From: a bacterium
GTDB taxonomy: Bacteria; Zhuqueibacterota; Zhuqueibacteria; Residuimicrobiales; Residuimicrobiaceae
Reading direction: 5' to 3'
Assembly: GCA_029565685.1 (NCBI GenBank)
Contig: JAKQNR010000006.1
Location: forward strand, 248,001-312,000
DNA: 64,000 bases
Positions 18,264 to 29,449 of this stretch are shown piece by piece. Under the pieces are notes generated by a model. It was not told where the DNA came from and searched no databases. It saw nothing but the letters and a program-made list of their open reading frames with translations. The translations under genes were made by a program, and so were the position numbers. Each line of letters opens with the position of its first letter. Position 1 is the stretch's first letter.

Positions 18264-18291
18264 AAAAAAATGTCAGGTGGAGACACCTGAC
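18264..18291 (-). terminator. Rho-independent terminator between AgmX-like gene and aspS
   Basis: Minus strand GTCAGGTG-TCTC-CACCTGAC then ATTTTTTTATT. Confidence 0.8.
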
Positions 18292-18395: not shown

Positions 18396-19532
18396 TCAAA
18401 AACCGAAGGTGTAAACCTGGCGGAATACGGCGTTTCCCAACCGCTCATCGATGGCGCCGAAATCATCCCATCGCGAGACTCTAGACAGGATGCAGCGTTC
18501 CACGTTTTCATTGGCGAGCGTCGAAGAGAGGATCGTCGCATTGGTCACCGTGCCGTTGGGCAGGATGGTGAACCGCACGACCACCTTACCCTTCAATTCG
18601 GGATTGCGTTTCAACTCCCGTTCATAACAATACTGGATTGCCTGACTGTGGCTGTAGACGATGGCCGACACCTCGTTGACGTCGCGCGCGCCGGTGACGG
18701 ATCCGCCCCCGCCCTGCAGATCGCTCTCTTCGGTGAGAGGCGCCAGCCCGACGGTCTCGATGTCGCTTTTGCGGGCCACGACCGAACCGGAACCTGTTCC
18801 GGTGCCAGAACCGCCGCGGCCGCCATCGCCGGGTCCGGAGATCAGGTCATGGCTTTTAACGCCGCTGGTGGTCGTACGGCCTCCGCGCACGCCGACCACT
18901 CCCGCTGTTCCAGCAGGAGCGCCGCTGGTCCGGGGGGTACGACCGCTTTCGGCCAACCGGTCGATGTTCTCGAACACCTGATCAAAGGCCTGGGAGGCCT
19001 GACCTCCGCTGGCCACCACATCGCTCACCGTCCGATCCTGCGCCTGTTGGCTTCCGGAAGCAAGAATGGCCAGCAGACCCTGGCCGCTGATCTCTGCCTC
19101 CGCTTGCCGCACCGCCCGGCCGCCAGGTCCGGAGGGCAGCCGCAGAGTCGAGCCGCTTCCAGCTGCGCCGCCAGAGGAGTGCGTTTCTTTAGAGGCGACA
19201 CCACCGCTCTGTTCCGCTGGCGGCCGGCTTCCTGCCGCCGGCCGCCGCGCTTCGAGCGGCGCCCTCTTCTTCTGCACATCCACAGGTAGGTTCTCGATCA
19301 TTCTATTTGCGATGCGTACTGTCTGCTCCTCCCGGTCCAGCACCAGCCGCGCGTAGCGGTCCTGAATGGTGCGGATCGTGCTGTCCGGCACGGTCACCGG
19401 CGGCGGGTTGAACAGGAAATAAAGGACGAACGCCACATGGAGAACAAACGAGGCTAACAGAATGAGTAGAAACTCGCGATCCAGTTCCTCGAACGGCTTT
19501 CTATAATATTTTTCCGGCAGGGCAGCGACCGT
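18396..19532 (-). CDS. AgmX/PglI C-terminal (TonB-like) domain protein; probable non-canonical ACG start
   Basis: C-term AIQYCYERELKRNPELKGKVVVRFTILPNGTVTNATILSSTLANENVERCILSRVSRWDDF. Track ORF starts at 19436 (GTG) inside the TM helix; in-frame upstream codons encode TVAALPEKYYRKPFEELDREFLLILLASFVLH with GAGGAG SD 7 nt before ACG (19530-19532). Confidence 0.8.
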   Translation of the reverse strand, partial: TVAALPEKYYRKPFEELDREFLLILLASFVLHVAFVLYFLFNPPPVTVPDSTIRTIQDRYARLVLDREEQTVRIANRMIENLPVDVQKKRAPLEARRPAAGSRPPAEQSGGVASKETHSSGGAAGSGSTLRLPSGPGGRAVRQAEAEISGQGLLAILASGSQQAQDRTVSDVVASGGQASQAFDQVFENIDRLAESGRTPRTSGAPAGTAGVVGVRGGRTTTSGVKSHDLISGPGDGGRGGSGTGTGSGSVVARKSDIETVGLAPLTEESDLQGGGGSVTGARDVNEVSAIVYSHSQAIQYCYERELKRNPELKGKVVVRFTILPNGTVTNATILSSTLANENVERCILSRVSRWDDFGAIDERLGNAVFRQVYTFGF

Positions 19533-19615
19533 AAAAAAACTCCTCGATTAATCACTCAAGCGCCAATTTGAGCGGCAGACCTCTTCCGCCTGAAACGTCG
19601 AACAGAGCGCGAAAC

Positions 19616-20113
19616 TCATCCACCTTTTTGATACACCACCAGACGCATGTTGGGAAACTCTGAACGGCCGCAGGTGGCCATCACCTTGAGCAAGGTGTTG
19701 AAGGGCAACTTTTGATCGCCCTGAATGGTAACCTTGCCGGTGAACTTGATGCCATAGCTCTCCTCCATCTTTTTGGCCTCCAGCGCATACTTTTGCAGCG
19801 CCTCATACAACCGGGGGATCAGCAGATCAGACTGGCTCGCCAGATTGCTCAACCGCTCCACCGGTTTTTCATTGACCAAAATCCACTCCTTGGACACTGT
19901 TACGTCCAACGCCACCTCCGGCAGCTGTTCACTGGTGGATTTGGGCAGGGTCAGATCCTGAGAGGGATGGGTCAATTGGCCTTCGATGTTATAGCTTTTG
20001 ATCAAGAACACCAGAATGATGGTGAACATGTCCATCATGGAAGTGAGGTTCAACGCCACTTTAGTCGGACCGCCGGTGTTGTGTCGCTTGATGCGTGACG
20101 GTATAAAAGCCAT
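19616..20113 (-). CDS. ExbD/TolR-like biopolymer transport protein (second)
   Basis: ALNLTSMMDMFTIILVFLIKSYNIEG N-terminal TM typical of TolR/ExbD; periplasmic domain ending MRLVVYQKGG. Confidence 0.88.
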   Translation of the reverse strand: MAFIPSRIKRHNTGGPTKVALNLTSMMDMFTIILVFLIKSYNIEGQLTHPSQDLTLPKSTSEQLPEVALDVTVSKEWILVNEKPVERLSNLASQSDLLIPRLYEALQKYALEAKKMEESYGIKFTGKVTIQGDQKLPFNTLLKVMATCGRSEFPNMRLVVYQKGG

Positions 20114-20133
20114 AGGGGGTACCTAATCGATTT

Positions 20134-20670
20134 CTATAAGATTCCCGCGCTGATGACCACTTCGGGGAACAGCTCGTATTTGACGTCATTCACTTTGATG
20201 CTGCGCGCCGCATCCATAGTACTGACCAGAGTTTGATAGTCAATCTGCATCTCCGCCTGAATGATGATCTTACGCGTGTCCATCGGCGAGGTGACCACGC
20301 GCTGTTTGAGTTCATACAGTTTGCGATTGAGCGCGTCGAAATCATAGCTGCCGTCGGGTTGCAGACCGATGGTGGGCCCGCCGGTGGTCGGATCCCGCAA
20401 CACGGCTTGCGAGCTGGAGAGATAAAAACCCCGCGAGGTGATCGAAATGGTCAGATCCAGTCCCGGCTGCGCCTCTTTGTCCATCAGAGTCTGGCTCACC
20501 GGACCGCCGGCGGCACGGGGCAGATTCAATTCAATGACGCCGTATTTGACGAACTGGGTGGTGGACAGGAGAAGCGGTATCAAAACCACCATCATGTTCA
20601 TCACCGGAAACAGGTTGAGCTCCACCTGTTCCGTCTCTAGATGACGACGTTGCGAGGGTCTATAAGCCAT
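20134..20670 (-). CDS. ExbD/TolR-like biopolymer transport protein (first)
   Basis: EQVELNLFPVMNMMVVLIPLLLSTTQFVKYGVIELNLP; TolR-type topology. Confidence 0.82.
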   Translation of the reverse strand: MAYRPSQRRHLETEQVELNLFPVMNMMVVLIPLLLSTTQFVKYGVIELNLPRAAGGPVSQTLMDKEAQPGLDLTISITSRGFYLSSSQAVLRDPTTGGPTIGLQPDGSYDFDALNRKLYELKQRVVTSPMDTRKIIIQAEMQIDYQTLVSTMDAARSIKVNDVKYELFPEVVISAGIL

Positions 20671-20672
20671 GC

Positions 20673-21323
20673 TTAACGATTCCCGGTTAACAGGTTAATC
20701 AGTTTCACCATGTGCTCGTCGATCTCATCGATAATCTTGCCGGTGCGATTGGTCAGATAGGTGTAGGCGAAAATCGTCGGAATGGCGATGAACAATCCCA
20801 CCAGCGTGGTGTTCATAGCTGTGGAGATGCCGGCTGCCAGCAGGCGGGCTTTTTCCGATGCATCGATGCCCGGCGCAGAAATGGAACGGAAGGCGATGAT
20901 CAGACCGTAGATGGTTCCAAGCAGGCCCAGCAGGGTGGCGATGTTGGCCAGCATGGCCAGATAATTGGTGCGCGCCTGCAATTTGGGGATGACTTCGAGC
21001 ATGCCCTCATCCACCGCGTTCTGAATGGAGCGGAAATCCACCTGCTGCTTATTGACCACAGAGCGCAGGCCGCTGGCCACCACCTTGGGCAGCGCCCGGT
21101 CTTTGGCGCGCAGGCAGAGATCCAGAGCGTCTTCCAACTTGCCGGCGGTGACCAGTTTGCGGATCTCTCCCATGAACTTTTCCGCATTGATGTCGCTGCG
21201 GCCGAGAATATAAATCGCGCGCTCGATGGCGATCGCCACCGCGAACACCGCCGCAATCATCAAAGCCCACATGTAAAAATAACCGGCAACGTCCGGACTA
21301 AAGTTACGGAATATCTCAGCCAT
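20673..21323 (-). CDS. MotA/TolQ/ExbB proton channel family protein
   Basis: Three TM; LAMLANIATLLGLLGTIYGLIIAFRSIS...AAGISTAMNTTLVGLFIAIPTIFAYTYL; GGGAGG SD before 21323. Confidence 0.93.
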   Translation of the reverse strand: MAEIFRNFSPDVAGYFYMWALMIAAVFAVAIAIERAIYILGRSDINAEKFMGEIRKLVTAGKLEDALDLCLRAKDRALPKVVASGLRSVVNKQQVDFRSIQNAVDEGMLEVIPKLQARTNYLAMLANIATLLGLLGTIYGLIIAFRSISAPGIDASEKARLLAAGISTAMNTTLVGLFIAIPTIFAYTYLTNRTGKIIDEIDEHMVKLINLLTGNR

Positions 21324-21388
21324 GGAAGCCTCCCAAAAAAGCAATAAAAAAATGCCTGCCGAACGAATAAAATAAAAAGAATATATTC

Positions 21389-21733
21389 TTATTTCTTTTC
21401 TTTAGCAAGATTTTTTTTGGCCGTTTGCATGCGCGCGCCCTCCTCCTTTTCCCGAACCACCTCTTCGAGAAACACCGGCCGCTGTTTGAGCTCTGCATCG
21501 AAGGAGCGGGTCAGAGGAGCCGCCTCCCCGACCTCCGGAGTCACCCGCTTGGGAATCAGGGTGACCGCCGGTTTTTCGATCACCGCTTCGATATGGATGT
21601 CCTCCAGGGACACCTCCACCGCCGCGGACGGCGCCGGCAATCCCCGAGTCGAGTCAGGGACTGCAGGGGCCGGATCCTGGCTGCCGGCCACGGCCGCCAG
21701 GATCATTATGAACAATATCACACAGTGTCGCAT
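21389..21733 (-). CDS. Small secreted/periplasmic protein of unknown function
   Basis: Signal peptide MRHCVILFIMILAAVAGSQ; VEVSLEDIHIEAVIEKPAVTLIPKRVTPEVGEAAPLTRSFDAELKQRP; charged C-terminus; inside TPR-TolQ operon. Confidence 0.65.
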   Translation of the reverse strand: MRHCVILFIMILAAVAGSQDPAPAVPDSTRGLPAPSAAVEVSLEDIHIEAVIEKPAVTLIPKRVTPEVGEAAPLTRSFDAELKQRPVFLEEVVREKEEGARMQTAKKNLAKEKK

Positions 21734-21848
21734 CCTGCCTCAATCCTTGATCTATTGCCTTGCGCCCAGCGCCTTGTGCCTCGCGGCTGCACTGCGAGCC
21801 CTGTTCGCAACCGGCGTCGGCCCAATCACGCCAGCCGGCCGCAACCGC

Positions 21849-24800
21849 TCAGCGCTGTCTGGCGTGAATCGAGCTCGCTCGTTCCCAGCCGGCGACCTGC
21901 CGCACCCGCAGCTCCACCTGAAAAGAGGGCGGCCGGCCTTCACTCTTGAGCACCTCCAGAGCGAGCAGATTCTGGCCGCTCACCAGACCATCGGTGAGCT
22001 CCACCTCCATCATTTTGTTCTCCTCATCCGCACTGCGGGTCTGTCGAATGAGCTCGCCGTTGAGATACACTCCCACGGAATGGGCGGCCGGAAAGGACAC
22101 CCAGCCGCGAACCGGCAAGCCGGTCACGGTGAAAAATTTCCGTAGAAACATTTTGGGAACTGGAACCAACCGCACTGCCAAAGTGTCGCCTGGATCGCTC
22201 ACCGGCTCCAGCAGCCAGACGGCTCGGCGGTCCAGCGGATCCGCCGCCGTGACCCTGGACCATTGCGAGGCATCGAAATCCACACCCGCCCATCTGGAAA
22301 AATAGGTGGATGCAGCCCGCCAAGTGGTATCGCTGACGGTCAACCGCTCCTCGACTTGAAGGTTCATCGCCGCCGCATAGTTCTCCGGGTCCACGGCCAC
22401 CAGCAGCGTAAGAACATCTCTCGCCGCCAGGCTGTTGATGGCGAACTCTTTGGACAGGCCATAGCCGCGCTCCAGCACCTCTTTTTCCACATGACGCAGC
22501 GTCGCCCGGTTGCTGTCAAAAGTGAACAGCGCTTCCTCAAAAATGGGATCTTCGCTCTGGGCGAAGCGACGGCCGGCCAAAGCGGCGCGCTCCTTGGCGT
22601 CCGCTGCAACCAGCTCGCACTGTTCGGCAAACTGGAAAACCCGCACCAGCAGGCTGTCCTGAAAGGCGGCCGCGGTCGTTTCCTCCACGCGCCAACGGGG
22701 GAGCGTGAGTAGCGTCTGCCGAAAGCCCGCCAGGGCGCTGTCCATAATGGCCTGAGAAAAATCTACCATATTGGACATGTCCTTGGCGTAGGTGGCCAGA
22801 GCGTCGAGCTGATCTTCCAACGAGCGGCCGCTGTAGATCAGATTGGAATAATCAATAAATTGATTTGAAACCGTGGCCAGACCTTCAATGGCCAAGCGGC
22901 TGAAGCCTTTGGGAATGGCGCTGTGCGCAGCAAGCAGCTTTTGTCTGGACAAGGCGACCCAGGGCGAATCATAACCCATGGAATCGGCAAAAGCAATATT
23001 CGCCTGATAAGCAAGCAACGCCTGCTGCAGCAGCGGAATAGCGCCGATCTGCAGCAACTGCTTTTGATAGACCAGGCGCTGAAGGTCGTTGAGTCCTTTG
23101 GGGACCGGAGCGTTCTGCACCGCCTGGGCGGATTGATACCGCCATTCACCCATGCGGTAGTGAACTTCTGTCAGCCTGTCCTTTGAACGATCGATCCATT
23201 TACTGGCGATGCGCAGAATGCTGTCCTGGGCGACGGTGGAGGACACCTGAGCGCTGTCCGAAAGGCCTTTCATCAGCTCTTGGGAATAGCTCTCTTTCAA
23301 CCGAGACAATCCCTTGATGGCGTTGCGAAACACCACGGCCGCGCGTTCAGAGAGAATCACCGCTGCGTCGTAGATCTCCTTCTGAGCGACAATCCGGCGG
23401 TTGCCCTCCATCTCCGGCAGTTCCTGAGCAGCCCAGGTTTCAGCGAACCGCTGATAGGCGACGCCCACCAAGTGAGTGGCCTCATACACACGGGGCGTGC
23501 CGTGACTGGCGCAGTTGCCCAGTCGGCGGACGATCTCTAGCAGCAGCTCCTTTTTCTTCTCTTTCGCCGCCGCCAGATCGGCCGGCGGCAGGCGGAAGGC
23601 AATGGCTTCAAACGCCTCGGTCTGAATCGCAGCGATGGCGAACTCTGACTCCGCGGCATAGTATTCGTTACGATCCAAGCCTTTGCGATGCAAGGCTTCG
23701 CTGAGACTGGCGGCCTGAAGGAATTCCTGCAGCGCTTTGTCCGACTGGCCCAGCTGATGAAAATGGCGGCCGCGTAGATAGCCGGCTTCCACCGTGCGCG
23801 GGGATTCGGGAAATCTTTTTATAAAAGCGGACAGCGCGTCCAGCGCTTTCTCCTGCTCGTTCATCCGCTGATAATACACCGCGATGTCAAACGCCGCATC
23901 GTCGGCATATTCGTCGGCGGGAAAGCGCTGCAAAAACGAACGGTTGATCTTGATCGCGCTCTCCCAATCTTCCGATCGGGCGAAATAGAGGCCGGCGTTG
24001 TACAGCGCGTCGCGCGCTTTGAGAGTGTCCGTCTGTATCGAGGCCAGGCGTTCGTAGGTGAGAGCGGCGTTGCGATAGTCGCGCACCTCCACATAGTCAA
24101 AGGCCAGGTTGTTCTGCGCATCGAGCACATAGGCCGATTTAGGCTGGGTCTTCAGTAACGCTCCGTAGGTTTCGATCGCCCGGTTGTACTCATTGGCCTT
24201 GTCGTATTCCAGCGCCGCGTTGAACAGCGCCAAGTCGGCGAACGCGCTGTTCGGCGCCTCTGTGACCACCCGACGGTACTCGTTGCCCGCCTCTAGATGC
24301 TTGTTGTCCTCCGCCAGCATCTCCGCCGCCAGATAGATGGATTCGGCCAGACGCCGTCGAGCGCGGGTTTTAGTCTCCTCAGACGCGTCGCTGTTGGCGA
24401 TGCGGCGGGCGATGATCTCCGCGCTGCGGAAATCCGCTTTGCCGAAATAGCTCTCCATAATGGCGCTGCGAGCCTGGGCGAACTCTTCACTGCCCGGGAA
24501 GTGACGCAGCAGGGTGTTAAAATATTTCAAAGCCTCTTTGTATTGATAGCGATGATAATACAGCGCACCGGCGTTAGCGAGAAAAACCGGCGTCTCCGAA
24601 TCGTGCGGAAAAAGTTTGATATAGTTATCATAAGCCTGAGCCAGCCGCTGCTCCTCGGCCGTGAGCTGGCGCGGCTCGAGCTTCATCCTTTCGCGGAACT
24701 TGACCCCCTGGGGATTTTTAGTCTCCTTTTGCAGATCCGCCAAAGAGACGGTCTGCTGCGACGCTCGCTCGGCGCTGGCGATCTCCGCCAGTGCGGCGTC

Positions 24801-26390
24801 GCGCGCCAGGGCTACGGCGTTGGTGGCGGCGAAACGCTGATAAGGCGAATTCCAATACAGATTGCTGATGCGGAGATATTCATCGAAAGCCTGCTGCGTC
24901 TGTTTGAGTTTGGTGTCCATGGTCAAGGCCATGTTCCAGTGGATCAGCGCGGCGCTCGAGTCCGCCGCAAAGCTGTCCAGGTATTTCCGGCTCTGCAGCA
25001 CCGCCTGTTGAAAGAATTCGATCTGGCCGCTCTCCTGGCCGCGGTTCAGCAGCACGGTGATGTTGTCGCGCAGTGCGCTCTCGACATGCAGCAGCGCCCG
25101 TTTGCGCACCGCGGCGTCCGTATTCCGATTCCACCAGTCGCTGCCTTCACGATAGGTGGTATACAGGAGCTCGCGGCTGCGAAAGGCCTGCGCCTGATCC
25201 TCCAGTCGGCGATGACATTGCACGATGCGGTTCTGCACCACCGGCGCCAGCGGGTCGTTGGGATAGAGCGTCAGCAACAGGGTAAACGCCTGTAGGGCGT
25301 TGGGATAGTCCTCTTTCTCGTTGAAATAGGCTTCGCCGATGCGCTTGAGCACCTGAACGCCATAGTCGCGACCGCCGATTTTCTGCAGATATTCAGCCGC
25401 CCGGTTCGCGCCGCCGTAATCCAGGAACGAAAGGCCGATGTATTCAACGGATTCATCCACCAGAGAGGGGTTGGTGAATTTCTGCTGCGGATCGAACTGC
25501 CTGGCTTTTTCAATATCATCGGCAAGCCGGGTGAAATAAGAGATCGCCCGCGGATAATCGTTGACCCGGTAATAACACCATCCGAGGCGATACAGGGCCT
25601 CGTTGTAGCGCGGGCTGTCGTAAAAGGGAAGGATGCGTTCGAAATAGGTGATAGCGGTCTCCACCGCATTCACCGGCGGATTAAAGTAATACTCCCCCAA
25701 GCGCATCAGCGCATCCGGCATGAGGCTGCTGCGCGGAAAGTCATTCACTACTTTTTCATAAAACGCCCGGCTGCTGTCCGCAAAACCGGCCTCCTCCAAC
25801 AGAAAGCCGATGTTGAAAAACGCATCGTCCACCAGATCGCCGTGAGGGTATTTTTCCACCACGGACACATAAAGGTCCAGCGCCTTGCCGATGTTTTTCT
25901 GCGGCTCCACGGGCGGCGTCGCCAGCTGGCCGCGTTCATAGAGCGCGTAGAGGCGGTCGTACTCTTGCATCTCCAGCTGAAAATCATCCTGCGCCTGTTC
26001 ATAATACAGCTCCGCCAGGCGCATCATCACCTTGTCGCCGGATTTACCGGCGGGTTTACGCGACAGAAACAGCTCGCCGTCGCGAATGCCGCGCTTGCGC
26101 AGTTCCAGCCGTTCGTTCTGCAGCCGGGTGATCTCGCGCGCATAATGGTTGCGAAAGCGTTCCAGCTCCTCCAACGAAAAGGATTTGATCACTGAATCGC
26201 GCATCGCCAGAAACGCACGGGCCGAATCGCCGGCGGTACGGGTGTCGGCCGCTCGGCTTGGTCCCCAGAGGGCGCTCCCCCACAGCCCCAGGAGCAGCGC
26301 CCGGATAAGAATGCGCCGTCTGGTTGTATGGCTGATGAATTGTTCTGGTGCCACAATGGCCTCGGTTATACGGATAGTCGCCGGCAGCAT
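21849..26390 (-). CDS. Very large periplasmic/outer-membrane TPR-repeat protein (~1510 aa)
   Basis: N-terminal hydrophobic segment; many TPR-like units e.g. ALDLYVSVVEKYPHGDLVDDAFFNIGFLLEEAGFADSSRAFYEKVVNDFPRSSLMPDALMRLGEYY. Confidence 0.88.
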   Translation of the reverse strand: MLPATIRITEAIVAPEQFISHTTRRRILIRALLLGLWGSALWGPSRAADTRTAGDSARAFLAMRDSVIKSFSLEELERFRNHYAREITRLQNERLELRKRGIRDGELFLSRKPAGKSGDKVMMRLAELYYEQAQDDFQLEMQEYDRLYALYERGQLATPPVEPQKNIGKALDLYVSVVEKYPHGDLVDDAFFNIGFLLEEAGFADSSRAFYEKVVNDFPRSSLMPDALMRLGEYYFNPPVNAVETAITYFERILPFYDSPRYNEALYRLGWCYYRVNDYPRAISYFTRLADDIEKARQFDPQQKFTNPSLVDESVEYIGLSFLDYGGANRAAEYLQKIGGRDYGVQVLKRIGEAYFNEKEDYPNALQAFTLLLTLYPNDPLAPVVQNRIVQCHRRLEDQAQAFRSRELLYTTYREGSDWWNRNTDAAVRKRALLHVESALRDNITVLLNRGQESGQIEFFQQAVLQSRKYLDSFAADSSAALIHWNMALTMDTKLKQTQQAFDEYLRISNLYWNSPYQRFAATNAVALARDAALAEIASAERASQQTVSLADLQKETKNPQGVKFRERMKLEPRQLTAEEQRLAQAYDNYIKLFPHDSETPVFLANAGALYYHRYQYKEALKYFNTLLRHFPGSEEFAQARSAIMESYFGKADFRSAEIIARRIANSDASEETKTRARRRLAESIYLAAEMLAEDNKHLEAGNEYRRVVTEAPNSAFADLALFNAALEYDKANEYNRAIETYGALLKTQPKSAYVLDAQNNLAFDYVEVRDYRNAALTYERLASIQTDTLKARDALYNAGLYFARSEDWESAIKINRSFLQRFPADEYADDAAFDIAVYYQRMNEQEKALDALSAFIKRFPESPRTVEAGYLRGRHFHQLGQSDKALQEFLQAASLSEALHRKGLDRNEYYAAESEFAIAAIQTEAFEAIAFRLPPADLAAAKEKKKELLLEIVRRLGNCASHGTPRVYEATHLVGVAYQRFAETWAAQELPEMEGNRRIVAQKEIYDAAVILSERAAVVFRNAIKGLSRLKESYSQELMKGLSDSAQVSSTVAQDSILRIASKWIDRSKDRLTEVHYRMGEWRYQSAQAVQNAPVPKGLNDLQRLVYQKQLLQIGAIPLLQQALLAYQANIAFADSMGYDSPWVALSRQKLLAAHSAIPKGFSRLAIEGLATVSNQFIDYSNLIYSGRSLEDQLDALATYAKDMSNMVDFSQAIMDSALAGFRQTLLTLPRWRVEETTAAAFQDSLLVRVFQFAEQCELVAADAKERAALAGRRFAQSEDPIFEEALFTFDSNRATLRHVEKEVLERGYGLSKEFAINSLAARDVLTLLVAVDPENYAAAMNLQVEERLTVSDTTWRAASTYFSRWAGVDFDASQWSRVTAADPLDRRAVWLLEPVSDPGDTLAVRLVPVPKMFLRKFFTVTGLPVRGWVSFPAAHSVGVYLNGELIRQTRSADEENKMMEVELTDGLVSGQNLLALEVLKSEGRPPSFQVELRVRQVAGWERASSIHARQR

Positions 26391-26414
26391 GGTTTGCAAG
26401 TCAGCGGAGAAAAG

Positions 26415-29315
26415 CTAGGGCGTCTGCGTCCGGTTGAGTTGCTCTTCCCACCCTTCCTGCTCCTGCTCTTTATTGTCGAAATAAAACTTGTCAAAATAAG
26501 TCTGCCGTTCCATTTGTTCCAGTTGAATCTTGCGGGACAGCAGGCGGTCCTGGAGTCTGCGGATGTCCTTTTCATAGCTCTGCAGCCGTGATTCGACCTC
26601 GCTCCGGCGTTCCGCCAGAACCGCTTCGATGCCCTTCAGCCGCTCGGCGTACTGATCGATGGTGTTTAAACGACTTGAACGTTCCTTGTATATGATGTCG
26701 GTCAGGCCGAAACCAGCCAGATCGTTCCACAGCTCGGCATTAGCAGCCACGGGATCGGAATGGACGTCGGCGACGCTTTTGCGCAGCACACTGAGGCGGT
26801 CCCGGAGATGGTCCAGATCGGACTCGAGCAAGTCCAGATCATTGCGGCTGCCGGCATCGCCCTTGGTCTGGCTGACCCGCTGATACTCTGCGACCAGTTC
26901 CATATTGCGCTCCAGACGACGTTTTTCCAATTCCAGGTCGCGGACCACTTCTATCAGATTCGTGCGCTGATATTCCCGGCTCGCTTCTTTGGCAGCCAGC
27001 GGAAAATCGAGCAGGAAAGCGGTGTTCACTACCTCCTGGTCTGAGCGATAGGTTTCCAACACGCGGACGATCCGCGCCAGCTGTTTGCGGGCCTGCTCCG
27101 CCAGATCCGGCCGGTTTTGCTGTTCCGCGATATCGATCACCGCCTCCAGATCATCCAACTGGTTGAAAAGCTCGAGCCGTTCATCGTAATAATCCTGTAA
27201 AAGAAGGCTGCCGCTGTCCGTGCGGCTGTTGACCACCTCCAGGTGGCCGCTGAGCTGTTCCTTGATCTTGTCAATCTCGGCGTACAGGGCCGCCTGTTTT
27301 TTATCCAACGCTTCGTTCTCCAGGCGGTTCAGCTCCCGTTCATGGGCAGCCGCCGTCTCGCGCTCCAGATTGTAGGCTTGTTTCTTCTCCTTTTCGTTTT
27401 GACTGCGCACAACGTAGCGATAGGCGTTCAAAGCGCTCAGCGGTTGCTGTAAAAGCCGCTTGCAATGGCCGGCCAAGGTCAGCGCCTCGTAGGTGAATTG
27501 AGAGGCGATAAAATCGTTGAGCAGCTGGGAGGAGCGCGCCAGAGAACGATCGTAATCCCCCAAGCGCAGGCTGGCCCAAGCCTGCCCGATCAGCGCCTGA
27601 TCATAGTTTTCAAAACCCTGGGAGATCCGTTCGAAATAAGAGAGCGCATTTTGGAATTCGCCGCGCTGGTAATGGATCAGACCCAATTTCAGCAGCGCGG
27701 TGTTGCGGATGTAGGCGGTCTGTAGATCGGTCCACGGATAGCTGGCCTGATCGGTCAAAGATTGCAGAATCGGGATGGCCTTGGCGAAATCATTTTGATT
27801 CAAGTGTACGATGGCGAGCAACATCTGCGCCGGCATATGGTATTCGGAAGAAGACGGAATGGCGGCGAGGGCGCGGCTGGAGGCGGCCAGATCGTTATCG
27901 ATGAAAAACCGATTGGCCGCCATATAGTGGGCGAACGCCCGCTGCTGCGCATCGGCCTGCGGTTCCTTGAGCAGCCGGTCATATTGGGTAAGAAAATCCT
28001 GCTGCAGATTAAAAGTGGCGGCGTACTGCATCAGACGGATCAGGCTGGCGGCGCGATAGCGGCTCGAGCTGGTGTCCGCCGCCAAAGCCGAGTAGAGATC
28101 GCGCGCCGCATCAAAGGCCTTGCGGTGATATTTGCATTCTGCCAGATAATAATTGAGCGGCGCAAAATAGGAATAGTAGGGGCTGAATTGCGCTTTGATG
28201 CTCTCGATCTGAAACTCAGCCAGCCGGTACTCGCCGGTGGAAAAATTCACCGCCAGGCTGCCGAGTTCGCGCTGCAGCATGCGATCGCGCTGATCCAGCG
28301 TGGCGGATTCCAGCAGCCGTTTTTGAATGATCTGATATTCGGTCAGCCGGGTTTTTACGTCCAACAATCGCTCTTTTTTCCAGGCGTCGATATAATCCGA
28401 CACCGTGGGGTAAGCGGTTAGAGAATAGCCGGCCTTGGAAAGCAGATCGATGAGGTTCTTGTCCACACGATGGAATAGAGCGGATTTGACCGCCTCCAGC
28501 CGCCGGGCTTCCTGCGCGCTGCTGCTCTCCTTCAGCGAATCCACCTGCTGCATGACCAGGCTCAGGGATTGAGCTTCATTCCGCAACCGCAGCATCGTCG
28601 TGTCGGCCATGGGCCCCAGCTTGTTCCAGCCGCTGAACACCTGAAACAGCCGCTTCTGCTGTTCGCCGATGGTGGTCAGGGCGTCCGTGTTGTTCTGTTG
28701 TTGCGCCCGACCCCGGGCCCGTTCCAACGCATCATAAATATTGAGCAGAGAATCCAATTCACTGGTGTATTCATCCAGCATGACGCCGATGCGGCGGCTG
28801 CTGTAGATCCCTTTCTTATAGAGTGCGGGGTCGTCCACCGAGGCCAGCAGCTCCTGCTTGCTGTCAGCCACCTGATTCAGCAGACGTTCGTCGCCGCGGT
28901 AATCCGCCACCCGCTGGAGCTTTTGCAGATCGTCGTAAACATCCACCAGCCGCGCCAGCTCCTGCTGATAGGAACGCACCAGCGTATCCCGGTGATCGTA
29001 GATCTGATGAAAGCCGGCCTGGTCAGCGGCCAGGCCTTCCGGTCCGCGAGCTTTGATCTCCGCATGGAGGTTTTGCACCAGCTGCAGGACCTGACGCTCC
29101 TGGGCCAGCAGGTCGCGCACCGCATCCCGGGTTTTTTCGTTGAGATAATAGCGCAGTCGTTCTTCGAAGGGGATTTCAGCAGGGCTCGTTTGCGCCCAGG
29201 CGATAGAGCGCACGGCGGAGAGCAGGAGAAGGAAGAGAACCACCCCCCCAGGGCTAAGCAGTATCGGAACCCGTCGCCAGATGCAGAACACGGGATGAAA
29301 GCGGAATCGATTCAT
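26415..29315 (-). CDS. Large secreted TPR/coiled-coil protein (~966 aa)
   Basis: Signal/TM near N-term (ILLSPGGVVLFLLLLSAVRSIAWAQ); TPR-like repeats followed by long coiled coil. Confidence 0.85.
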   Translation of the reverse strand: MNRFRFHPVFCIWRRVPILLSPGGVVLFLLLLSAVRSIAWAQTSPAEIPFEERLRYYLNEKTRDAVRDLLAQERQVLQLVQNLHAEIKARGPEGLAADQAGFHQIYDHRDTLVRSYQQELARLVDVYDDLQKLQRVADYRGDERLLNQVADSKQELLASVDDPALYKKGIYSSRRIGVMLDEYTSELDSLLNIYDALERARGRAQQQNNTDALTTIGEQQKRLFQVFSGWNKLGPMADTTMLRLRNEAQSLSLVMQQVDSLKESSSAQEARRLEAVKSALFHRVDKNLIDLLSKAGYSLTAYPTVSDYIDAWKKERLLDVKTRLTEYQIIQKRLLESATLDQRDRMLQRELGSLAVNFSTGEYRLAEFQIESIKAQFSPYYSYFAPLNYYLAECKYHRKAFDAARDLYSALAADTSSSRYRAASLIRLMQYAATFNLQQDFLTQYDRLLKEPQADAQQRAFAHYMAANRFFIDNDLAASSRALAAIPSSSEYHMPAQMLLAIVHLNQNDFAKAIPILQSLTDQASYPWTDLQTAYIRNTALLKLGLIHYQRGEFQNALSYFERISQGFENYDQALIGQAWASLRLGDYDRSLARSSQLLNDFIASQFTYEALTLAGHCKRLLQQPLSALNAYRYVVRSQNEKEKKQAYNLERETAAAHERELNRLENEALDKKQAALYAEIDKIKEQLSGHLEVVNSRTDSGSLLLQDYYDERLELFNQLDDLEAVIDIAEQQNRPDLAEQARKQLARIVRVLETYRSDQEVVNTAFLLDFPLAAKEASREYQRTNLIEVVRDLELEKRRLERNMELVAEYQRVSQTKGDAGSRNDLDLLESDLDHLRDRLSVLRKSVADVHSDPVAANAELWNDLAGFGLTDIIYKERSSRLNTIDQYAERLKGIEAVLAERRSEVESRLQSYEKDIRRLQDRLLSRKIQLEQMERQTYFDKFYFDNKEQEQEGWEEQLNRTQTP

Positions 29316-29449
29316 GCACTGCCCTTTCCACACACAAAAAGCGAAAACGGCGCGTAAGGGTGTTTGGCGCCGAATTCATATTTGAAATAATATTAAAGAT
29401 ATTTTTATTCTCTGTCAAGGGAATAATTACGCGCTGGCACGGTTCCTTT

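Follow-up and report, generated by a model that had tools for sequence, protein, structure and literature searches.

What kind of machine is made by one TolQ-like protein, two unlike TolR-like proteins, a TonB-like transducer and two giant secreted proteins, when no TolB, Pal or receptor gene is linked to them? The question is raised by seven co-directional genes (g1 to g7) on the minus strand of a 64,000-nucleotide stretch of a Residuimicrobiaceae genome (phylum Zhuqueibacterota; GenBank assembly GCA_029565685.1, contig JAKQNR010000006.1, positions 248,001 to 312,000), here called the window and numbered from its first letter. Their order is tetratricopeptide repeat (TPR) protein, TPR protein, small secreted protein, TolQ, TolR-A, TolR-B and TonB-like protein. 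An earlier note, made from the DNA letters alone, had likened this block to the AglRQS motor and Glt complex that drive gliding in Myxococcus xanthus. We found that the TolR-A proteins of the KSB1/Calditrichota block consistently lack the ion-carrying Asp and that TolR-B retains it, a result in which we have high confidence, as we have in the anatomy and conservation of the block. We put at about 0.6 the probability that the block encodes a single envelope-spanning machine driven by the proton motive force, a KSB1/Calditrichota form of the Agl-Glt core complex with a one-carboxylate motor and a glycan or adhesin cargo. It is of the core-complex type and not a gliding machine as such.

When aligned to ExbD with HMMER, TolR-A (g5) carries Asn25 at the position of the ion-carrying Asp of ExbD, TolR and MotB. 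The same Asn was found in 39/39 members of the window's class, with Asp in the TolR-B of each (39/39), and in 60/60 KSB1/Calditrichota pairs of the window's operon type (type I, see below); distant loci from a scan of named genomes have N or S in TolR-A throughout. In Fibrobacterota the site varies (G, A, S or N), in contrast to the constant N of KSB1, and it is never D in 29/29 readable proteins, TolR-B again having D. Neither the KSB1 nor the Fibrobacterota searches selected on the TolR-A residue. Among 102 distinct TolQ-TolR-TolR (Q-R-R) triplets, the TolR pairs were N/D in 91, S/D in 2, D/D in 8 and D/G in 1, and no pair (0/102) was without any Asp. Both pore Thr residues of TolQ are kept in all 102, the window's g4 included, so that these features, together with at least one Asp per TolR pair, agree with an active channel. 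Conservation of the TolR-A helix exceeds that of the remaining protein (0.79 versus 0.62), as expected of a pore helix, and the helix retains a strongly conserved N..P.MN-type motif. The tree requires two changes to explain the D rows and four to explain all states; it is unrooted, and its starred branches leave a single origin of N possible. One metagenome-assembled genome of the Myxococcales (L170) has the asymmetry reversed, with Asp in the first TolR and Gly in the second.

The Q-R-R order is shared with AglRQS, and hidden Markov model (HMM) searches pair AglQ-type proteins with TolR-A (43-50 versus 14-20 bits) and AglS-type proteins with TolR-B (88-90 bits). However, the pore Asp occurs in AglQ- and AglS-type proteins alike: for three genomes that are true Myxococcaceae (GltJ 847-906 bits), the Q-R-R set that fits the lengths of AglR (245 amino acids [aa]), AglQ and AglS is D/D, and so is the second Q-R-R set of these genomes. 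In M. xanthus, the AglQ substitution D28N abolishes proton conductance and paralyzes the machine (PMC3858216), and the KSB1 TolR-A thus has the natural equivalent of this substitution. The suggestion of an AglRQS-type motor consequently fails at the very residue that is essential in AglQ-type proteins. The same genome's Ton system (ExbB-ExbD-ExbD-TonB) has Asp in both ExbD proteins. We found no description of an Asn/Asp TolR pair in the open-access literature, and a sequence search of the PDB returned no match for TolR-B and only a marginal one, to ExbD, for TolR-A.

Present-day models for MotAB, ExbBD and TolQR presuppose a pair of equivalent helices, each with an Asp, that alternate in the pore. 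A multiphylum family that is naturally D28N-like in one TolR and has Asp in the other means either that one Asp suffices or that the Asn subunit lies outside the axle. Our confidence in a heterodimeric, one-site axle is moderate; the wider proposal, that the N/D pair is a true axle of this kind and that the D/D AglRQS of gliding myxobacteria is a specialized version of a one-carboxylate machine that is either older or parallel to it, is offered tentatively. If such an axle exists, a very widespread motor would need just one carboxylate for each turn of the dimer. Alternatively, TolR-B may pair with itself into a homodimeric axle bearing two Asp, like ExbD and MotB, and TolR-A would then lie outside the pore, serving in assembly or in wall binding. 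This would suit the absence of an ion-binding Asp from TolR-A in every N/D-type pair, as well as the Fibrobacterota site, which drifts to G, A or S as if ion binding were not kept there. Nevertheless, we consider the homodimer rather unlikely, given that TolR-A keeps its pore-helix motif and is always encoded beside TolR-B, and that AglQ, its counterpart in D/D systems, requires this Asp for motor function (PMC3858216). Reviews state that the AglQ-AglS pairing is unknown (PMC9389320); the natural N/D family makes this question directly testable.

We envisage the one-carboxylate machine as follows. TolQ would form a pentamer in the inner membrane, and TolR-A (Asn) and TolR-B (Asp) would supply its axle, most likely by pairing as a heterodimer in which just one carboxylate carries ions, giving a 5:2 assembly of the MotAB/ExbBD/TolQR class, with which the conserved pore Thr residues agree. 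The transducer g7 would dock beside the pentamer via its SxxxH helix and then cross the periplasm, where its TonB-like AgmX/PglI domain may engage both secreted TPR proteins (g1 and g2) and g3. The force would probably act on complexes that contain glycan or adhesin and lie at the wall, at the outer membrane or on the cell surface, because g2 ends in a sandwich resembling a sugar-binding domain. AlphaFold2 (AF2) models the C-terminal 567 residues of g2 (predicted local distance difference test [pLDDT], 87) as a stack of long helices that leads into this beta-sandwich. Designed helical proteins apart, the best Foldseek matches in the PDB were enzymes of glycoside hydrolase family 2 (GH2), with probability 1.00, E values of about 1e-4 to 1e-3 and alignments of about 160-200 columns; the domain is predicted to resemble the GH2 sugar-binding domain and may itself bind sugar. 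The AF2 model of g1 (pLDDT 77) has a TPR core at about residues 340-640 with long coiled coils on both sides, and its match to GltC (NF033756, 39.4 bits against a cut-off of 450) is confined to the TPR stretch. The small protein g3, with the motif I.IEA..EKP.V...PKR...RSF..EL, matches no Pfam or NCBIfam family; 37 homologues occur in place.

The AgmX/PglI domain that the earlier note had assigned to the end of g7 was recovered by HMM search (NF033768, cut-off 40). The TonB family model TIGR01352 also scored above its cut-off of 27.1 bits; TonB_C (PF03544) reached 23.7 bits against 24.6, GltG 78.9 bits against an equivalog cut-off of 650, and GltJ 29.2 bits against 450. The domain search of g7 gave no FHA domain and no vWA match, and its only solved relative was TonB (E about 0.08). 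As in TonB and TolA, the transmembrane (TM) helix bears an SxxxH motif (SFVLH), which is present in 26 of 36 homologues. The called open reading frame is too short, as its GTG at 19436 falls within the TM helix, and no ATG, GTG or TTG occurs upstream as far as the in-frame stop at 19550. The start is probably an ACG at 19532, 7 nucleotides (nt) after GAGGAG. In a comparison of starts in the window, L035, L066 and L039, the window's congener likewise has ACG 7 nt after GAGGAG, L066 independently has it 7 nt after AGGAG, and L039 offers only ATT or ATC. The transducers of type II operons and of Nitrospinota have a longer N terminus; an NF033760-type FHA match was found in a Myxococcales locus, and in a type II protein it was subthreshold (17.6 versus 20.7 bits).

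How widely is the block kept? Our class sample comprised 40 loci, the window's own and 39 from other genomes of the class. The seven-gene order is complete in 32/40; five loci are cut by contig ends and three have no recognizable g7. The TolR-B family occurs in 58/61 phylum genomes (46/49 of the high-quality ones). Given the constancy of order and this breadth, the block is not a chance grouping. It is followed directly by aspS in 27/40 loci and preceded by the atp operon wherever the fetched stretch extends that far. The nearest relatives in the scan of named genomes are records of candidate division KSB1 and of Calditrichota, and most phylum genomes hold two operons, namely type I, as in the window (229-292 bits), and type II, a more remote form (about 124-153 bits). 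Type II is complete in most of them (for example, L271 and L272), with an N/D motor in the loci examined (L084, L085, L087 and L132). Profiles built from the seven genes recovered homologous clusters in Latescibacterota, Nitrospinota, Fibrobacterota, Desulfobacterota, Bdellovibrionales and Myxococcota; for the TPR proteins of the distant clusters, generic resemblance among TPR repeats may account for part of the match. The window's gene order recurs in Latescibacterota, Nitrospinota, Fibrobacterota and some deltaproteobacterial records. The Q-R-R genes of Desulfobacterota and Myxococcales are followed by a GltG-like protein of about 800 aa and then two TPR proteins; in one Myxococcales locus, these proteins match GltG at 191 bits and GltC at 77 bits. 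A plasmid search with TolR-B gave no match.

This near-universality, the housekeeping position between the atp operon and aspS, and the YbgF/CpoB-like repeats of g2 could mean that the block maintains the outer membrane, doing the work of Tol-Pal where TolB is weak or missing. TolB_N was found in just 19/39 phylum genomes (for example, G000:C31), every match being weak, and in the window's genome it lies elsewhere than the block; Tol-Pal may be divergent or missing in the phylum. The housekeeping position leaves a general envelope role open. A substitute for Tol-Pal nevertheless seems unlikely. The block has no Pal-like or TolB-like gene, and, as the earlier note had held, it is not a Tol-Pal set: no tolB or pal lies beside it in the 40 class neighborhoods. 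The TolQ equivalog model gives g4 73 bits against a cut-off of 221. Furthermore, the window's genome has a separate TPR-outer-membrane protein-TolQ-TolR-TonB set (L079:2780-9501, on C36; the possible outer-membrane protein is of 563 aa, and TolB and Pal are absent), three related genomes have lost the block, and the Fibrobacter counterpart is induced by cellulose. With Tol-Pal and Ton systems the block shares the TolQ/ExbB and TolR/ExbD folds, the SxxxH transducer helix and the TonB-like C-terminal domain; it differs in its two unlike TolR proteins.

The Fibrobacter counterpart also bears on function. In F. succinogenes S85, FSU_2397 (TPR, 84 kDa), FSU_2398 (TPR, 147 kDa), FSU_2400 (TolQ, 23 kDa), FSU_2401 and FSU_2402 (ExbD/TolR, 32 and 18 kDa) and FSU_2403 (TonB family, 32 kDa) (PMC4619616; PMC6851124) follow the window's order of TPR, TPR, one gene, TolQ, TolR, TolR and TonB family. 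These masses agree with those of related Fibrobacterota genomes (TolR-A 30-34 kDa, TolR-B about 18-20 kDa, transducer 33-34 kDa). The FSU_2397-2403 proteins are more abundant on cellulose, with fold changes of 1.2-1.7 (PMC6851124), and FSU_2401-2403 were detected only in cellulose-grown cells (PMC4619616). FSU_2396 and FSU_2397 belong to a proposed outer-membrane-vesicle complex in which the TPR protein accompanies OmpA and fibro-slime proteins, and expression of the cluster FSU_2396-2404 in the rumen is very high (PMC8092306). The earlier note had left function blank; the cellulose-induced, rumen-expressed orthologue now offers a lead, although our confidence is low for the exact cargo. A shared theme of force on surface glycans or adhesins may link Agl-Glt (adhesion, slime) with Agl-Nfs, which moves spore-coat glycan in M. 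xanthus (PMC3858216), although for KSB1 this is an extrapolation.

FSU_2400-2403 were originally read as a TonB/ExbBD transport system, with a separate TPR scaffold (PMC6851124, PMC4619616, PMC8092306), and on that hypothesis (PMC6851124) our block would energize TonB-dependent import. The TonB-like C-terminal domain of g7 fits, but the conserved linkage to two giant secreted TPR proteins argues for one machine. There is no TonB-dependent receptor in the class neighborhoods, the comparison that the earlier note had called for, and the genome owns its separate ExbB-ExbD-ExbD-TonB system. We regard import as improbable. The closest described system is instead the Agl-Glt core complex of Luciano et al. 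(2011), defined by the Group B genes gltC, D, E and G with aglRQS homologues in Gamma- and Deltaproteobacteria and Fibrobacter; its authors call it insufficient for gliding and leave its function open (PMC3169522). Common to both are one TolQ, two TolR, an AgmX/PglI-tail transducer and TPR proteins in a single cluster with no tie to motility, as well as an additional gene that Myxococcales lack, possibly g3. The block differs in having two TPR proteins rather than three (GltC, D and E), in lacking the FHA domain of GltG, and in its occurrence in KSB1/Calditrichota, Latescibacterota and Nitrospinota; the available part of PMC3169522 makes no mention of an N/D state in the TolR pair. The kinship with Agl/Glt claimed in the earlier note is thus borne out by the GltG and GltC matches (below equivalog cut-offs) and the homologous clusters as far as the core complex, and not as far as a gliding machine. 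Least probable of all is a Myxococcus-type gliding motor, which the related Q-R-R set, GltG-like tail and TPR proteins would allow, but which the Asn of TolR-A (D28N in AglQ stops gliding; PMC3858216), the insufficiency of the core complex alone (PMC3169522), the near-universal retention next to housekeeping genes and the absence of every Group A gene (gltA, B, F, H, I, J and K) from the window's block, the conserved unit of the 40 loci being the seven genes plus flanking atp and aspS, argue against. With a cultured, well-studied member in F. succinogenes, the function of the 2011 core complex becomes approachable outside the myxobacteria.

A TPR-tolQ-tolR-tolR-vWA cluster of the Planctomycetes-Verrucomicrobia-Chlamydiae (PVC) group is similar in its TPR protein, one TolQ, two unlike TolR and membrane-tethered transducer with a conserved His; that transducer has a vWA domain where g7 has AgmX/PglI, and the available part of the report makes no statement on the TolR Asp states (PMC12204202).

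Several observations weigh against a core-complex machine with a glycan or adhesin cargo, besides the alternative of a TolR-B homodimer already discussed. A GH2-like fold at the end of g2 does not prove sugar binding, the SxxxH motif is missing from 10/36 transducers, and the scan pattern itself selected in part for the TolR-B Asp of the distant loci. Orthology with Fibrobacter is based on gene order, predicted masses and isoelectric points, and related genomes, not directly on sequence from S85. Three members of the window's family (L256, L257 and L258) are without either motor, atpC and aspS adjoining where the block is cleanly absent, which shows that it is not essential to every member. 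In a Caldithrix-like branch (L063, L064 and L138), the Q-R-R genes and aspS are in place and g7 is short and degenerate.

The coordinates and domain matches confirm the seven genes much as first described, with revised starts for g1 (most likely the ATG at 29315) and g7, and the hairpin and T7 tract of the terminator lie where the earlier note had put them. Intergenic gaps are 15 nt for g1-g2, 2 nt for g4-g5, 20 nt for g5-g6 and 65-115 nt for the remainder.

Table 1. Features of the seven-gene block and its flanks, in window coordinates
Feature	Position	Strand	Basis or remark
Sigma-70-like promoter-like site, TTGACA-17-TAATAT	29390..29418	-	10/12 consensus matches, best site of region, upstream of g1; consensus match only
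g1, secreted TPR/coiled-coil protein, 966 aa	26415..29315	-	TPR Pfam matches; GltC/GltE-like position
g2, giant secreted TPR protein, 1516 aa	21849..26399	-	TPR_6 88 bits, YbgF/CpoB-like repeats; GltD-like position
g2 C-terminal beta-sandwich, predicted fold like GH2 N-terminal sugar-binding domain	21894..22355	-	AF2 and Foldseek
g3, small secreted protein, 114 aa	21389..21733	-	Homologues in place; no Pfam/NCBIfam family
g4, TolQ/ExbB/MotA proton-channel subunit	20673..21323	-	PF01618 MotA_ExbB 91.4 bits
g5, TolR-A (AglQ-side)	20134..20670	-	PF02472 ExbD 50.1 bits
Asn25 codon of g5, equivalent of ExbD Asp25/AglQ Asp28	20596..20598	-	Alignment
g6, TolR-B (AglS-side)	19616..20113	-	PF02472 ExbD 53.0 bits
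Asp28 codon of g6, sole pore carboxylate of the TolR pair	20030..20032	-	Alignment
g7, TonB/TolA-like transducer, AgmX/PglI C-terminal domain	18396..19532	-	NF033768 90.3 bits, TIGR01352 32.8 bits; probable ACG start
Intrinsic terminator between g7 and aspS	18264..18291	-	GTCAGGTG-TCTC-CACCTGAC-A-T7

The type II set of the window's family (L081 and L263-L266) has lost all three motor genes; in the window's own genome this motorless second set consists of g1-g2-g3-g7 (L081:9633-15694, on C16). The TM module of its L081 transducer resembles that of the genome's Ton-system TonB (19/38 identical, 50%; E 9e-10), a likeness that is weaker in L263-L266, and type II transducers with their own motor have no Ton-like TM module. 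To judge from these sequences, the motorless set looks like a natural motor switch to Ton, which lends support to a role for the helix in choosing the motor. Sharing of the window's motor with the motorless set, as in Agl-Glt/Agl-Nfs, is less likely than such a switch, since the set persists in G002, G003 and G005 without an N/D motor and its transducer has the Ton-type TM module. Finally, the window's genome carries an orphan g7 paralogue without the SxxxH His (L082:9910-11037, on C36; 376 aa, 223 bits), beside ffh, rpsP, trmD and rplS.

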